Shown here piece by piece: positions 16,418-52,231 of a stretch of 52,231 bases of DNA. The notes under the pieces are model-generated. The model did no database searches and had not been told where the DNA came from. It saw nothing but the letters and a program-made list of their open reading frames with translations. A program made the translations under genes and the position numbers. Numbering within the stretch: the first letter of the stretch is position 1; every line of letters begins with the position of its first letter. Source of the stretch: Vicingaceae bacterium (GTDB lineage Bacteria; Bacteroidota; Bacteroidia; Flavobacteriales_E; Vicingaceae); the NCBI GenBank assembly GCA_019429185.1, contig JAHYJH010000012.1, positions 1 through 52,231 on the forward strand, written 5' to 3'.

Positions 16418-17749
16418 TTGGACGATCCTCTACCGACCCTGCGAATGGGTAGTTTATTATTAAATGTATTCAACTCAATTAATGTAACAATTTTAATTGA
16501 GTTGTTAGTTATTCTTATTCTTCTTGTATTTTCTGGACTTATATCAGGTTCTGAAATTGCTTTCTTTTCGCTAACCCCATCAGAGTTAAATAAAATTAGT
16601 CACTCTAAATCAAAAACCAATCAGTTAATTAATAAATTATTGAGCAATCAAAAGCAATTATTAGCAACCATCTTAATTTCTAATAACTTAATTAACATCG
16701 CTCTCATTATTATTACAACTCATTTTGCAAACAATCTTATTAATTTTTCCTTACTTCATCCATTAGTAGCTTTCATTACTCAAGTAATTGGAATAACCTT
16801 TATTATTCTATTGTTTGGAGAAGTGATTCCTAAAATTTATGCGACCAAAAATGCACACAAACTAGCTAAAATGATGATTTTTCCTCTAAATGTTTTTTCT
16901 TTTTTTGTTTTTCCATTAAGTTACTTGTTAATTAAATTTTCTAGCATAATAGATAAACACATCAAACAAAGAGGTTTAAATGTTACGGTTGAAGATCTTT
17001 CTCATGCGTTAGACTTAACTTCCGACATTCCAGAAAATCAAGATGAACATCGTATTTTAAAAGGGATAGTGAAGTTTGGAGAAACAAGTGTTAAACAAAT
17101 TATGACTGCAAGAGTTGATGTTGTTGCTCTAGATAAAAACCTTCCTTACACTACTGTAATTAATACCATTATAGATTCTGGATATTCTCGAATACCTGTT
17201 TATGAAAATTCATTTGACACCATAATTGGTATTATTTATATTAAAGATTTATTGGCTCACATTAAAGAAAATGACAATTTTGAATGGATAAAGCTAGTAA
17301 GACCTCCTTTTTTTGTTCCTGAAAATAAAAAATTAGATGATTTATTAAGTGAATTTCAAGAAATGAAAATGCACCTTGCTATTGTGGTTGATGAATATGG
17401 TGGCACATCTGGAATTGTTTCTTTAGAAGATATTTTAGAAGAAATTGTTGGTGAAATTAGCGATGAGTTTGATGATGAATACATTAGTTACTCAAAATTA
17501 GATGAAAACAACTTTATATTTGATGGAAAAACTCCTCTAAATGATGTGTTTAAAATAATTAATAGTGATAGTGATGCTTTCTTTGGCAATGAAAAAGTTG
17601 ACGCTGAAACATTGGCTGGATTAGTAATTGAAATAGCCGAAAAAATTCCTCAAAAAAATGAAAAAATAACCTACAAAAACCTTCATTTCACTGTTGAAGC
17701 TTCCGATAAAAGAAGGGTGAAAAGAGTAAAACTTACTATTTTAAGGTAA
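16418..17749 (+). CDS. gldE: gliding motility-associated protein GldE (CNNM/CBS/CorC family)
   Basis: 443 residues: a DUF21/CNNM membrane domain (about 20-190), two CBS domains (about 205-330: MTARVDVVALD and RIPVYENSFD; FQEMKMHLAIVVDEYGGT) and a CorC_HlyC transporter-associated domain at the end. This is the HlyC/CorC family, and its position directly after mutY-ssb is where GldE sits in Flavobacteria. GldE is linked to gliding/type IX secretion genes. The gldD gene that usually follows is absent here: a minus-strand gene ends 37 bases downstream. The start is TTG at 16418 (giving an acidic DDP N-terminus) or ATG at 16445. Confidence 0.85.
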   Translation: MDDPLPTLRMGSLLLNVFNSINVTILIELLVILILLVFSGLISGSEIAFFSLTPSELNKISHSKSKTNQLINKLLSNQKQLLATILISNNLINIALIIITTHFANNLINFSLLHPLVAFITQVIGITFIILLFGEVIPKIYATKNAHKLAKMMIFPLNVFSFFVFPLSYLLIKFSSIIDKHIKQRGLNVTVEDLSHALDLTSDIPENQDEHRILKGIVKFGETSVKQIMTARVDVVALDKNLPYTTVINTIIDSGYSRIPVYENSFDTIIGIIYIKDLLAHIKENDNFEWIKLVRPPFFVPENKKLDDLLSEFQEMKMHLAIVVDEYGGTSGIVSLEDILEEIVGEISDEFDDEYISYSKLDENNFIFDGKTPLNDVFKIINSDSDAFFGNEKVDAETLAGLVIEIAEKIPQKNEKITYKNLHFTVEASDKRRVKRVKLTILR

Positions 17750-21743: not shown

Positions 21744-24700
21744 AATAAACTTCTATGGAAGTTAATTTTCCTAACTTATTATAGTATTTGTTTTCGCCAT
21801 TTTGATCATTGTTTATGTAGGTAATTTCTTCTTTTAAAGTACCATCTTCATAAAACAATTTTGAGATGCCATGTAAATCTCCCATATTGTAGTTATGCAT
21901 TGCTTTAATTTTTCCATTTGGATAATAAATAGCATATTTTCCATTTCTAAATCCCTCTACAAAAAACTGTTCTTCAGCTAATTGCCCAGTGTAATAATAT
22001 TCTTTGTATGTATTTGTAAGATTTCCATTTTTATATTCCATTTCTCGTGATACTTTACCATTATCGAAATAGGTTACTATTTTTCCTGTTTCATTTTTAA
22101 TTTCTATCATGGGAATTTCTTTTCCATCTTTGCCTAAATAACTATAGCCAATTAAAATACCATCTTTATAATAGCGAAAAAGTTGAATTTTTCCATCTTC
22201 ACTATAAAATGTTCTTGGTCCTTGTAACATTCCATCAACATAATTATAGGTGTTTGTAAGGATTCCTTTTTCATTATAATCTTCCGAAATTCCATTAATT
22301 TTTCCGTAATAATATGTTTCTTTATCACTCAATTTTCCATTTTCATAAAATTCTTCCCAAAGTCCATGTTTCTGCCCTTTCACATAAGAACCTTTCTTTT
22401 TTATTTTACCATTGTTGTGGTAATAAATCCATTCACCATCTTCATCTCCATTAAAATAGTTTCCTGTTGTAACTAGTTTTCCTTCGTAATTATGTGAGGT
22501 AAATTTTCCATGTTTAACATTATATAAGTAGGTAACTGAGTTTTCTACTTTTTTGTTGTGGTGATAAGAAAACAGTTGATAGGGTTCATCATCAAATACT
22601 GTATAATCAATTTTATAAATTTCTTCACCTTTACTGTTAAAAAACCGTTGTGATTTCAAATCATCATACTCATACGTAGAAATATAGCTTAGTTTTCCGT
22701 TTGCGGCATAGTATTCTTGATTTCCATGCAGTTTTCCTTTGTGGTAAAAGTTTTTCACACTAATGGTTGTGTCTTTATAATAGCTTAACCAAACACCATT
22801 AAGTTCTCCATCTTTATAATTGCCTTGTTGGTACATATTTCCTGTAACATAATAGGAAACATAGTAACCTTTTATGGTATCATTTTCATAAAATGATTTC
22901 TTTTTTAAATTACCATTTCCGAAATAATCAACAGCTTCTCCAACAACTTTTCCATCTTCATAACTAGATTTACTGCTTAAGATACCATTTTCTTTATAAA
23001 ATTTCCATTCTCCTTTTTTTCCACCATTCACATCATACAAACCTTCAGCTATTTTATATCCAAGTCGGTTATATCCTTCATAGTAAAATTCTCCTTTTTG
23101 TTTTTTGGCTTCTTTCAACACACTGCCATCTTGGTTGTAATACTTGTAAGCAATTATATCTCCTTTTTTATAGGTAAATTCGGTAATTAATTTATCTTCT
23201 CTATCAAACTTTTTGTAAGCCCCATCAAATTTTCCTTTTGTATAATTGAAAATAGCTTCTGTTTTTCCATTATCATAATAGGTTTTCCATTCGCCTTCAT
23301 TTAAACCATTTTCAATATTACCTTCTTCTTTTATAGTTCCATTTCGATGGTAGGAAACAAATTTTCCTGTTTCAACATTATTTAGATAGTTTGTTTTTGA
23401 CATTATTTTTCCATCGTCATAATATTTTATTTGTTCTCCTTGTTTTTTATCATCCTTAAAAGTTAGGGTTGTGAATAACTGTCCATTTTCCCAAAACTCA
23501 CTTAACAAGCCGTCAATAACACCCATTTTATAAGGTACTTTATTGTAATCTGGGAAATTTTCTCCTAATCTATAAAATGTTAAATAATCGCCATCTAATT
23601 TACCATCTTTCAGCGTTCCTTGCTCTATCAATGCTCCCGCTTCATTAAATTTTTTGTACGTTCCCGTTACTTTTCCTTCAGCATAATTCGCTATTAATTG
23701 CTTTTTATTATTTTCATGAAAGGATGTATAAACGCCATCTAATTTACCCTTTTTATAATTTTCTTCGGAAGTTACATTTCCCTTATTGTCGTAAAAAATC
23801 CATAGCCCCTCTTTTTCTCCTTCATTATTAAATTTAACTTTTGATGATAACTTACCATGTTTATCATAAACATACCAAGTTCCTACTTTCTTATCGTTTT
23901 CCATCAGCCCTTTGGCATCTAATAGAGAGTTGTAATATGCATATTTAACAATCTGATTTTTACCTTCAAACTCTTCTTTATTTTTACTGATAATATCTAT
24001 CCATTTTATATAAAATTGAGTTAAAAAGGTTTTAATATTTTGCATTTTTTTAGCAACAATTGCCTTGTAAGTTGCATTTTCTGCCGAAAAAGAAATTGTA
24101 TAAATAAAATTATCATACTGATTATTTTCTTGTATCCACTTATATAAAGGCACATATCTTGTATCCCAAAAGTTATCATTTTCAGGGGTATAATCTTTTA
24201 AAAGTGCCAACAATGCATGATTTTGTTTGGCTAATGAATAATCAATTTTATTACCTGTTTTATATTTTTTGTTTAAAGCAGCTTGATTGTTTATTATTAA
24301 ATCAATTTCTTCAAAAGCATCATTATCTCCCAACACATTTTTGCCTGACAATTTTTCTTCCGTATATTTTGCTGAAACTGTTTTATTAAATGCTTCGAGC
24401 ATAGTAAGAGAGTTGCTTCCATCTGGATTTAACAACATATAGGTATTAAAACACATCAATGCGAGTGTTGTTTTTTGATATTGATAGCAAAGATATCCTA
24501 ATCGGAAATGGGCATTTGCATAATAAGGATTAATTATTATTGCTTGTTGATACATTGATGCCGCTTTGGCATATTCTTTAAGTCCCTCATAAGCAACTCC
24601 TTTATTTACATAATAAAGATAATTCATCGGAAATTCTTTTAGTCCTTTATCTAAAACTTCCATAGCACTTTTGTAATCTTTTAAGGCAATGTAGGAAAGT

Positions 24701-25714: not shown

Positions 25715-25750
25715 CTTATAATCCATTATTAATAACAACCCCATTTTTAA

Positions 25751-25787
25751 TCCTAACAGATTTCAAAAACCTGTTAGGATTTTTTTA
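25751..25787 (+). terminator. terminator after hpf
   Basis: TCCTAACAG and CTGTTAGGA form a perfect 9-base stem with a 12-base loop, followed by a run of T residues (25781-25786). It lies about 36 bases after the hpf stop and in front of the truncated YafQ-like frame. Confidence 0.85.
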
Positions 25788-25805
25788 TAATTTCGTAAAT
25801 GGTAA

Positions 25806-26057
25806 TTGTCGCATTTGATACTTGAGTTTACCGCATTAAAAAGAGGTTTAAAACGCAAACTTATTGATGAAGTTATTTTGTTGTTAGAAAAACAAGGCAA
25901 GTTACCTGCAAAATACAACCCCCACGTATTAAAAGGAAATTTTAAAAACTATTGGGAATGCCACATACAGCCCGATTGGTTACTTATTTGGAAACAAGAC
26001 GAACCAATTAAGTTAATTACACTTACTTCCACAGGAACCCACTCTGATTTATTTTAG
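25806..26057 (+). pseudogene. YafQ-type toxin, N-terminally damaged and without antitoxin
   Basis: An 83-residue frame opening with TTG. Its C-terminal two thirds are a textbook YafQ/RelE-type mRNA interferase: EVILLLEKQGKLPAKYNPHV, LKGNFKNYWECHIQPDWLLI, and the closing TSTGTHSDLF with the catalytic His region. The N-terminal strand-helix normally reading M-Y-x-x-x-x-T-x-x-F-K-K-D-Y-K is shortened or replaced by LILEFTALKRGLKRK, and no ATG precedes it. No antitoxin gene lies upstream, where hpf and its terminator are. I regard it as a decayed or orphan toxin; an active protein from the TTG start cannot be excluded. Confidence 0.65.
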
Positions 26058-26139
26058 TGTGAAATTTTACACCAATTCTTTGTATTGTGTTTTCAACCCT
26101 AAAGGGAGTTCTCGTATTAATATATTTTCAGGTGCAAAA

Positions 26140-26169
26140 CAAAAAAGAGAACTTCGTGGAAGTTCTCTT
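26140..26169 (-). terminator. terminator of the infC-rpmI-rplT operon
   Basis: On the minus strand AGAGAACTT and AAGTTCTCT pair around a short loop, followed by TTTTTTG. It lies 30 bases past the rplT stop and is the only good hairpin before the YafQ fragment. It may also work for the opposite strand. Confidence 0.8.
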
Positions 26170-34770: not shown

Positions 34771-35020
34771 TAATCCTTACCGGGCTTGGGCTAAAAGATG
34801 GTGGGCATTTAGAACCACATTACTGTCAGCCACCCCAAAAGTAGATAAAAAGCACCAAAGTTTCTTTTAGCACTTTCTGCCCACTTGATTTTAGCCCATG
34901 TTACTAGTAGGGCGTTCTGTCTGTCAAAGCGTTGAAGTCCTTCCCTGTTCTCACTTCGCTGTTATTGTCAATTTATTGCTGTGTCTGTTGTGGGAGGCGG
35001 TTTTAAAAATTTTTAGAAGG
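34771..35020. other. structured gene-free element (possible RNA or mobile DNA end)
   Basis: This part of the 509-base gap between msrB and the truncated regulator lacks an open frame but has structure. GGGCTAAAA...GTGGGCA (34788-34807) is the imperfect complement of TGCCCAC...TTTTAGCCC (34878-34897), with 70 bases between that hold smaller pairings. Downstream, a composition of short G/C-rich words, unlike the AT-rich surroundings, continues to about 35020. I recall a similar conserved non-coding sequence in other Bacteroidota, but cannot name it. No protein is supported. Confidence 0.45.
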
Positions 35021-35772: not shown

Positions 35773-36724
35773 CATAGCGAGTTATTATAATGTAAAGCCA
35801 GATAAACTAAGGCGTCAATACAAAAAGCACAGCAGTGGATTTAAAGATTGGGAACAAAAAATACACGCATAAGAATATATGCTATTTCCAGAAAATATAG
35901 GGGAATATTTAAGTATAGATGAAGTATCGCTTTCACAGGGAGAAATTTATACCTTTATTACCAATAAAAATGGCAAAGGAAAAAAGGGAACATTAGTAGC
36001 ATCAATTAAAGGAACACAAGCTAAAGAAATTATAGCTGTGGTAGAAAAATTACCATTAACAGAACGAGAAAAAGTAAAAGAAATAACATTGGATATGGCT
36101 AAAAATATGGAATCAGCCATTAAGCAATCATTTACAAAAGCAACATTAGTTACCGACCGCTTTCATGTAGTAAAACTAGTAATAGAAGCCTTGCAACATT
36201 TTAGAGTAAAATACCGATGGGAAGAATTAGACAAAGAAAACCTTGCTATAGAAGAAACTAAGAAAAAAAGTTGTAAATATACGCCTACAGTATTATCAAA
36301 TGGAGATACGCCTAAACAACTTTTAGCTCGATGCAGATATATACTTGTTAAAAAAACTTCTGATTGGACTGAAAATCAAAAACAAAGAGCAGAACTACTT
36401 TTTAACCTTTATCCAACTTTAAAAGTAGCTTATGAACATACTTTGGAATTTAGAAGTATTTATGAACTAAAAAACAAAGAACAAGCTAGGCAAAGGATTT
36501 TAAAATGGACAGAAAAAACAACCGAACTTCAACTAAAAGAATTTAATACTGCTGCAAACTCTGTAAATAATAACCTTGAAAATATTCTCAACTTCTTTAT
36601 TAATCGTAACACCAATGCAAATGCTGAATCTTTTAACGCTAAAATAAAACGCTTCAGAGCTAATTTAAGAGGGGTTGCTGACACCTCTTTTTTTCTCTTC
36701 AGACTGCATAAGCTTTTTGCTTAA
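35735..36724 (+). pseudogene. ISAon1-type transposase catalytic part, with an in-frame stop
   Basis: The frame reads ISNIASYYNVKPDKLRRQYK and HSSGFKDWEQKIHA, then TAA at 35870-35872, then EYMLFPENIGEYLSIDEVSL. Relatives read straight through this junction (HAEDWLLFPDN-like), so a single-base change from GAA to TAA is the simplest explanation. Downstream an ATG at 35879 opens 281 codons holding the DDE-type core (SIDE, TDRFHV) of an ISL3-like fold and the Glu in NANAESFNAKIKRFRAN. The transposase is therefore probably inactive, unless reinitiation rescues it. Confidence 0.68.
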
Positions 36725-50488: not shown

Positions 50489-50553
50489 GTTCTTATTGTC
50501 ATTCAGTTAACAATGGAATAAACTACCATTCGCTGATAAGGCTCACTTAAAAG

Positions 50554-50582
50554 GGGACACGTTAAAAATTATGGGGAAAAGC
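50554..50582. mobile_element. solo terminal repeat of an ISAon1-type element
   Basis: GGGACACGTTAAAAATTATG (50554-) followed by GGGAAAAGC matches the left end of the insertion sequence at 35324 at about 26 of 29 positions. No transposase is nearby: the rest of this 359-base gap (50489-50847) has only this remnant, a promoter and an attC-like half site. The remnant may be a leftover of a second, deleted copy. Confidence 0.65.
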
Positions 50583-50710
50583 TTATGATCTAATACAGTT
50601 TATTACATCAGCATTTTATTAGGACACAGTATGTGCGATTACTATCGGAAAAGAAGTTACACTCCTACTACAATAAATAACAGTGAAGCGGTAAAAAGCC
50701 CATTTGATGA

Positions 50711-50739
50711 TTTGTAATTCAAATAAATAGTTATATTTG
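50711..50739 (+). promoter_or_regulatory. promoter candidate upstream of the nuclease gene
   Basis: TTTG at 50711-50714 and TATATTTG at 50732-50739, 17 bases apart, fit the Bacteroidota consensus. The nuclease gene starts at 50848, about 110 bases downstream. The promoter lies before the attC-like half site, as if it belonged to a neighbouring cassette. Confidence 0.5.
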
Positions 50740-50820
50740 TAAGAAATAAATAACACCAAAAGGTGTACATATCTACCCAAATAGGCTGAATATCCACCAC
50801 AAAGGTGTGCATATATATAA

Positions 50821-50828
50821 GTTGGCAA
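50821..50828. other. attC-like half site upstream of the nuclease gene
   Basis: GTTGGCAA at 50821-50828 is the exact complement of TTGCCAAC at 51980-51987 beyond the gene. In integron cassettes the R' half precedes the gene and the rest of attC follows it. The match is short, but the arrangement supports a cassette when taken with the structure at 51980-52117. Confidence 0.4.
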
Positions 50829-50847
50829 CAAGCTAAGAAATCCGTAA

Positions 50848-51972
50848 ATGAATACAGAATTTAAGGAAATTGAAAATATCCTGAACATCGTAAAATCAAG
50901 AATTGATGCTCATTATAAATTCAAAAAGGAATACAATAAACAATTAGCCCTTGATTTTAGTTTATTTCAATTTTTTTCTGTGGGAGAAAACAAAATAAGT
51001 CAAGTCTTAGCTTACTTTTTGGACGTGAATCAAAACCACGGACAAGGAAATATATTTTTATCTGAATTCATAAAAACATTTACCAATAAAGAAATTGAAA
51101 TTGAGCAAATAGCCAACGTCTGTGAAAAAATAATAACTAACAAAAGAAGATTAGATATTTACATCAAACTAAAAGGATTGACAATTGGAATTGAAAACAA
51201 AGTTTGGGCAGACGACCAAAATAATCAATTGAAGGACTATTCTCAGTATTTAGAAAAGAATACTAATGGCAACTATATCCTTTTCTATTTAAATCCATAT
51301 GGAACAGAGCCAAAATTGAAAAGTATCGATGAAAAATTAAGCCATAAATTATACAAGGAAAATAAATTAAAAGTCATCGGTTATAAACAAGATTTAATCC
51401 CTTTAATTAATACTTGGTTAATTAACTGTGAAGCTGATAATGTTTCATATTTTCTAAAGGAGTTTAAAAAGTACCTTGAAGTTAAATTTCTCGGCAAAAA
51501 CACATTAAATATGTCAAAAGAATTAAGAGAAATAATCTACAAAAATGAGAAAGAAGTCAAACATTTGGTCAATGAATACAAAAACATTGAGAATGAAGTT
51601 TTAGCTAAATTAAATACTGTTGGGAAAGAATTGGACAAACTAAATCCTATTGTGGACGAAGATATTGTAATAAGCAAAAGTGGACTTTTTAATTGGGAAG
51701 GTTCGAGAGTCTATAAATATTCGATTTCAAAAGACTATAATAAAATTTGGATTCAGTTTGTCAAAGAAGAAATTCATCTATATTCAAATTACTACTTGCA
51801 AGAAGGGACAGATGTAATTTTCAATGAACTTCTATCGGATTTAGGTATAAATAAACACGAGAAAATAGATTATAAACAAAGCAAAACCGATTTGATAAAT
51901 ATCTTTCTTGAACAAATTAAAATTGCCAATGAGAGCTTTCGTGAATACGACAAACGAATTGGAACGGAATAA
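50848..51972 (+). CDS. PD-(D/E)XK nuclease superfamily protein
   Basis: 374 residues. The N-terminal SLFQFFSVGENKISQVLAYF leads into the nuclease core with Asp103 in RRLDIYIK and Glu116-x-Lys118 in IGIENKVWADDQNNQLKDY: the D-(D/E)-x-K signature of the PDDEXK_4 group (PF14281-like). A C-terminal helical and coiled region follows. Such stand-alone nucleases occur as cargo of mobile DNA and some in defence; no partner gene is seen. It lies between attC-like sequences, a single-gene cassette arrangement. The cleavage activity and target are inferred from motifs only. Confidence 0.82.
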   Translation: MNTEFKEIENILNIVKSRIDAHYKFKKEYNKQLALDFSLFQFFSVGENKISQVLAYFLDVNQNHGQGNIFLSEFIKTFTNKEIEIEQIANVCEKIITNKRRLDIYIKLKGLTIGIENKVWADDQNNQLKDYSQYLEKNTNGNYILFYLNPYGTEPKLKSIDEKLSHKLYKENKLKVIGYKQDLIPLINTWLINCEADNVSYFLKEFKKYLEVKFLGKNTLNMSKELREIIYKNEKEVKHLVNEYKNIENEVLAKLNTVGKELDKLNPIVDEDIVISKSGLFNWEGSRVYKYSISKDYNKIWIQFVKEEIHLYSNYYLQEGTDVIFNELLSDLGINKHEKIDYKQSKTDLINIFLEQIKIANESFREYDKRIGTE

Positions 51973-51979
51973 AAGCCAG

Positions 51980-52117
51980 TTGCCAACAATGGCTATAAAC
52001 AATTGGGGCGAAAGTTATAAAACGAAAGTATAAACATAAAATAAAGGTTAGTGCTAAACCGAAAAGTTAGGGCATAAAAACCCCAACTGTTCATAGCCTA
52101 GACCGTTATAGTTAAGC
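51980..52117. other. integron attC-like recombination site
   Basis: Beginning 8 bases after the nuclease stop: TTGCCAAC (51980-51987), then GGCTATAAACAATTGGGG (51991-52008), whose complement, with two mismatches, is CCCCAACTGTTCATAGCC (52081-52098), and then CGTTATA and GTTAAGC (52111-52117), the latter fitting the GTTRRRY core. The 138-base span and long imperfect hairpin suit an attC. No integrase is in the window, so it could be one end of an integron or an orphan cassette cluster. The remaining bases to 52231 hold no gene I can support. Confidence 0.55.
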
Positions 52118-52231
52118 ACCCATCAGAACTTCGAGCATTATTGCTTTCTATTGGTTTTGTGGTTTTTGATCGGTAAAGCAATTAATCCGTTCTAAACAAA
52201 GGGAAAAGCTACCTTGACACTTTTTCGCTTT

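Follow-up and report, generated by a model that had tools for sequence, protein, structure and literature searches.

IntI, the integrase of integrons, is defined by an additional domain near patch III (PMC2426708, PMC9668308). The I2 helix is held to have given integron integrases their single-strand recombination, and is said to be needed for cassette capture and to be present in no other protein (PMC7790495). Canonical attC sites carry two or three extrahelical bases that steer strand choice; attC x attC recombination fails without them (PMC2727003). A lack of intermediates has been regretted (PMC7790495), and integron searches in Bacteroidetes have reported almost none (PMC9024848). Here we describe a nuclease gene in a stretch of DNA from a Vicingaceae bacterium (Bacteroidota; contig JAHYJH010000012.1 of assembly GCA_019429185.1; 52,231 nucleotides, hereafter the window). 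The source genome is assembled in 232 contigs, of which the window is contig C154. Together with an attC-like site, the gene forms a unit of 1,284 bp. We put at about 0.9 the probability that it represents a mobile gene cassette, inserted at one copy of the attI-like site of an integron-like system. The original prediction, made from the window alone, had proposed an integron-type cassette. The proposal gains support from an empty site, from the occurrence of the same palindrome beside many unrelated genes, from arrays located behind a recombinase and from a search of 395 genomes of the class that gave no close relative of the nuclease (E <= 1e-40). The features of the locus are the following.

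50550-50717, + strand: 3' remnant of a recombinase gene, with its last codons, KSPFDDL-stop, at 50693-50717.
50718-50823, + strand: attI-like insertion site, terminating in the crossover triplet GTT.
50759-50771, + strand: attI direct repeat, copy 1, AAAGGTGTACATA, within the dyad ACACC-N4-GGTGT.
50801-50813, + strand: attI direct repeat, copy 2, AAAGGTGTGCATA, 42 bp past copy 1.
50821-52107, + strand: probable nuclease cassette, preceded by the attI-like site (50718-50823) and closed by an attC-like site of its own (51980-52107).
50821-50828, + strand: R' end of the cassette, GTTGGCAA, with the crossover within GTT; complementary in every base to R'' (51980-51987); contig C58 has the empty site.
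50848-51972, + strand: cassette gene, 374-aa PD-(D/E)XK nuclease (PDDEXK_4; PADLOC PDC-S26).
51980-51987, + strand: R'' box of the attC-like site, TTGCCAAC, exact complement of R'.
51985-52107, - strand: attC-like site AAC..GTT, predicted to fold as bottom strand, with stem arms at 51991-52008 and 52081-52098.
52105-52231, + strand: first bases of the next unit, GTTATAGTTAAGC..., which on C58 come immediately after attI; both contigs stop here.

The borders of the cassette are given by the empty site. On C58, a copy of the attI-like site abuts the sequence found at 52105-52231 of the window, with only the triplet GTT in common. Deleting 1,284 bp between two GTT triplets of the window therefore gives the C58 arrangement. 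Because C58 joins attI directly to GTTATAGTTAAGC, the sequence past the GTT ending at 52107 belongs to the next unit. The imperfect palindrome that follows the gene spans 51985-52107 and has GTT (52105-52107) as its last triplet; in relatives too, the site terminates at the corresponding GTT. The original prediction correctly noticed a long imperfect palindrome behind the gene but let it run as far as GTTAAGC (52111-52117), taken as the attC core. These bases lie outside the site, in the next unit, and the empty site rules them out as a core.

The left border has a counterpart on contig C35. There, an intact gene for a 361-aa tyrosine recombinase is directly followed by 133 bp identical to window positions 50692-50824, then by another cassette group closed by an attC at 17292. 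The end of this recombinase gene is identical to positions 50693-50717 of the window. For positions 50550-50682, the homologous sequence is the decayed one flanking attI on contig C55. In all, 139 bases left of the cassette occur again elsewhere in the source genome. As the original prediction said, the window has no intact integrase, and its attI copy lies behind a mere recombinase remnant, but the genome does possess an intact recombinase with an identical attI on C35.

An integron cassette enters as a circle cut inside GTT. The first bases of a cassette (R') must therefore complement the R'' box of its own attC. That GTTGGCAA and its exact complement TTGCCAAC bracket a nuclease gene standing alone and pointing in one direction had been seen in the original prediction, and the sequence agrees. 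The rule extends to other cassettes. In a set of 34, the score of R' with the R'' of the same cassette was 4.09 out of 5 bases, compared with 1.95 +/- 0.21 for shuffled pairs; the window cassette scored 2 in this set, being read one base off register, and its true match is 5/5. For 36 cassettes of named genomes, the values were 4.31 and 2.36 +/- 0.17 (the two sets overlap at a few loci, e.g. G056/L183 and G046/L250). In most loci, the first cassette past attI has a 5/5 match.

Folded as a single sequence, the window site is modestly better than its shuffles (z = -1.6 for the top strand and -2.4 for the bottom strand). For this reason, proof of the site is comparative. Full-length homologues with 69-95% identity are found in relatives behind differing genes, so that the search suggested with the original prediction, for the same palindrome beside unrelated genes, gave many cases. 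Alignment of 14 sites reveals an 18-bp stem with nine covarying pairs. Two stem positions read as A.C on the top strand in 14/14 sites and as G.T on the bottom strand. Because an mRNA hairpin would be made of the top strand and would carry the fixed A.C, it is the bottom DNA strand whose structure is conserved. Another 72 sites, taken from named genomes, show pairing in 95.2% of the cells, covariation of 17 of the 18 stem pairs and one invariant G.T (72/72), in an alignment fitted to the covariance model and hence biased to its structure; sliding the partners in this alignment lowers the paired fraction to 38-50%. Since the hairpin covaries and the bottom-strand G.T is invariant, the bottom strand of attC is predicted to fold, as in integrons.

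The site is common. BLAST finds it in 12 of 60 relatives and the covariance model in 50 of the same 60. Model matches number 21 within the source genome, and extend to 76 of 148 Bacteroidota genomes and to 51 of 83 genera. The window site scores 141 bits with covariance model R1, to whose training set it belonged. An Rfam search gave no relevant family. Searching canonical integron loci (L255 and L256) with R1 gave no significant match, a weak control as these loci have few attC sites. Some sites of the family reach about 185 bp, the stem being unchanged and the tip extended (L157, L158 and L159). A second attC-like site is present on the opposite strand of the window (34779-34902, - strand; 41.9 bits, E about 1e-6). 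It has no terminal GTT and is therefore probably decayed. A nearby open reading frame (ORF), at 35879-36724, resembles a transposase fragment.

Homologues of the recombinase are found in Flavobacterium, Pedobacter, Algoriphagus, Chitinophagaceae, Saprospiraceae and many metagenome-assembled genomes (MAGs). Within 80 named loci of the recombinase, all attC sites share the orientation of the recombinase (72/72) and nearly all lie downstream of it (70/72). Across the 148 genomes, attC was detected in 46 of the 52 that bear the recombinase, against 30 of the 96 others (Fisher p = 1e-11). Six attC sites follow one another in Flavobacterium saccharophilum DSM 1811, and on the closed chromosome G341 attC in matching orientation comes after every one of three recombinase loci. 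Of 63 cassette ORFs in the examined arrays, 60 are oriented like the recombinase. In another family (G445, G451 and G457), the recombinase diverges from the array, in the style of classical integrons. One Bacteroidota family (L257, L258 and L259) has a recombinase of only about 280 aa that diverges from its array in the classical layout and is devoid of the IntI insert. A contig of a MAG labelled Azoarcus (L214) also bears a close homologue of the recombinase, as a result of horizontal transfer or of mis-binning.

In many species, an attI-like site occupies the homologous position behind the recombinase. The sequence ...TATAAACAA-GTT, or a close variant, is found about 100 nt past the recombinase stop codon, and the first cassette follows. 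Where the attI direct repeat is clear in relatives, its spacing is usually 43 bp (42 in the window) and its sequence is species-specific. In two genomes, recombinase and attI are identical over 1,714 bases, exactly as far as GTT, and the sequences differ from there on. In many cases, contigs break just behind the recombinase or at attC (e.g. G035:C98, G050:C16 and G009:C45). Such breaks would follow from a repeated presence of attI and attC in those genomes, and they may have hidden the system from surveys.

The source genome contains at least five near-identical attI copies (87-100%) at different loci (L042-L048, on contigs C154, C35, C58, C229, C55, C193 and C116). Those on C58 and C229 are near-identical to the window attI (98%), and that on C55 shows 87-88% identity. 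The copies are much more similar to one another than their left flanks are, and only one of them has an intact recombinase. On C229 (L053), the attI copy at 23093-23212 is fused to an unrelated frame of about 1,497 codons, to which it gives the final codons and the stop. At the same locus, a group II intron maturase-like ORF (25745-26167, - strand) comes after the cassette genes; links between group II introns and integrons are known (PMC7923331).

Taken together, these observations suggest how the nuclease cassette could have come to its place. The C35 recombinase would act in trans on the window attI. The folded single bottom strand of the attC of a circular cassette would recombine with double-stranded attI, inside GTT, and exit of cassettes would occur by attC x attC recombination. 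The nuclease would be anti-phage or other DNA-restricting cargo, possibly expressed from upstream. It matches Pfam PDDEXK_4 (PF14281; 85.9 bits, E 4e-24, above the gathering cut-off of 22.3) and the model of the PADLOC candidate defence gene PDC-S26, and its translation contains the motif D103 ... E116-x-K118. In view of the PDC-S26 match, a role in defence is plausible. The cassette group on C35, about 10.6 kb with a single attC detected at its end, encodes adenine methyltransferases and Lamassu-type LmuA/LmuB. Besides many unknowns, the products of other arrays include an NB-ARC protein, a Schlafen-type helicase and a RES-domain protein, so that defence is a plausible, though non-exclusive, theme of the cargo. 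The original prediction had also named what would speak against it, namely an attC score at background, a palindrome beside no other gene and a nuclease gene conserved in position in relatives; none of these was observed, the 395 genomes offering no close nuclease homologue whose position might be compared.

Could an ordinary IntI with I2, encoded elsewhere in the genome, move the cassettes, the Xer-like recombinase being a bystander? Cassette anatomy, AAC/GTT ends and bottom-strand folding are all integron traits, and a complete integron has been reported in a member of the Bacteroidetes, Salinibacter ruber M1 (PMC9024848). However, no IntI above the curated cut-off was found in the 60 relatives, 50 of which have attC matches, nor in the source genome. 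The arrays lie directly behind the Xer-like recombinase, in the orientation and position described above. Between GxKDR and HxLRH, these recombinases have a span of 68-69 residues; the corresponding span is 70-77 in Xer recombinases and 110-111 in two full-length IntI (IntIA and IntI1). The IntI profile is left unmatched at about positions 178-237 in nearly all matches, and in the predicted structure of the recombinase helices 240-253 and 271-284 are separated by no more than a loop with a short strand, so that the I2 domain is missing. The attC sites also lack bulged bases. We regard a canonical integron as very improbable here.

About as improbable is another kind of mobile element, for example one that carries the nuclease as cargo and exploits host XerCD at a dif-like site. 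In sequence and fold, the linked recombinase is of the Xer type and has no I2. The solved structures closest to its predicted model are those of archaeal XerA (4a8e, Z 24.6; 5hxy, Z 21.0), then IntI4 (2a3v, Z 19.1), and it scores 221 with the XerA family NF040815 of NCBIfam, for a cut-off of 220. Moreover, IMEX elements use Xer (discussed in PMC7790495). Against this, insertion occurs at attI behind a dedicated recombinase, at a site common to many different cassettes in tandem arrays. Separate genes of the source genome encode two further Xer-type recombinases, presumably XerC and XerD, which argues that the linked recombinase is not the housekeeping one. In a phylogenetic tree, the recombinases linked to attC in the window's lineage group in a clade separate from IntI (99/96). 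The tree fits both an ancestral position and a parallel origin relative to IntI, as it gives no firm order of branching for IntI, Xer and the other attC-linked lineages. Least probable of all is a transcription terminator or dispersed gene-end repeat with incidentally matching ends, as a palindrome a few bases past a stop codon might suggest, since the transcribed top strand is mismatched, with fixed A.C, at the positions of the bottom-strand G.T pairs, the upstream end of each cassette complements its own downstream site far beyond shuffles, and both the recombinase linkage and the empty site exist.

Several points nevertheless weigh against reading the nuclease unit as a cassette of an integron-like system. 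The evidence is comparative sequence analysis of natural sites. The window attI has no intact recombinase next to it. The empty site is a different locus of the source genome rather than the equivalent locus in a sister strain. To the right of the cassette, the next unit is absent from the assembly, both contigs ending after its first 127 bases. These 127 bases, identical at the ends of C154 and C58, look like an assembly-graph overlap. As the 133-bp attI repeat exceeds this apparent 127-base overlap, the join between left flank and cassette depends on how the assembler resolved repeats; the cassette itself and the empty site are independent of it. Finally, the bias of the 72-site alignment has to be kept in mind.

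Beyond this locus, a gene-capturing, integron-like system appears to be widespread in Bacteroidota. We lean towards a phylum-wide integron lineage that would recombine folded single-stranded attC without I2 or extrahelical bases, would represent either a surviving intermediate between Xer and IntI or an independent invention of the integron, and would include anti-phage genes in its cargo. Our search of open-access papers found no description of such a system, though an earlier one is possible. The missing I2 segment may explain why standard searches have largely overlooked it. A widespread cassette system following integron logic without I2 makes the idea that I2 is necessary directly testable. 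It would also bring to light, in a major phylum, many mobile genes that have mostly gone unseen; in the source genome, the cargo includes a Lamassu-type system and a candidate nuclease.

As in IntI integrons (class 1 and Vibrio chromosomal), a tyrosine recombinase stands beside attI, insertion occurs at the GTT crossover, and cassettes, usually one gene plus attC, form tandem unidirectional arrays. The attC sites likewise have AAC/GTT ends, R boxes with R'' and R' complementary across the cassette, an unpaired central spacer, a variable tip, a predicted bottom-strand hairpin and a G after the bottom-strand AAC (69/72 here). In contrast to IntI integrons, the stem has an invariant G.T wobble, several attI copies are dispersed within one genome and the recombinase often points toward the array. 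Extra stem bases, the counterpart of the extrahelical bases of the L stem, occur in at most 3 of 72 sites, and the GTTRRRY core is present at 3 of 59 cassette starts, all 59 having GTTR. Because the recombinase has no IntI-specific insert and the attC sites have neither extrahelical bases nor GTTRRRY, the standard integron implied by the original prediction does not hold. The lack of extrahelical bases is in keeping with the lack of the I2 helix, and the invariant G.T is a candidate for a substitute strand marker.

The recombinase resembles XerA, XerC and XerD in its nearest structures and in the absence of I2. Unlike them, it is linked to attI and cassette arrays; in the lineage of the window, about 85 additional residues form a further N-terminal region. 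The nuclease belongs with PDDEXK_4 nucleases and PDC-S26 by family match, but is borne here as a single-gene cassette. With the Bacteroidetes integrons reported using IntegronFinder (PMC9024848), the system shares the phylum; here, however, attC is found in about half of the sampled genomes and the recombinase is not IntI. The system would thus be integron-like in its working while being distinct from IntI integrons.
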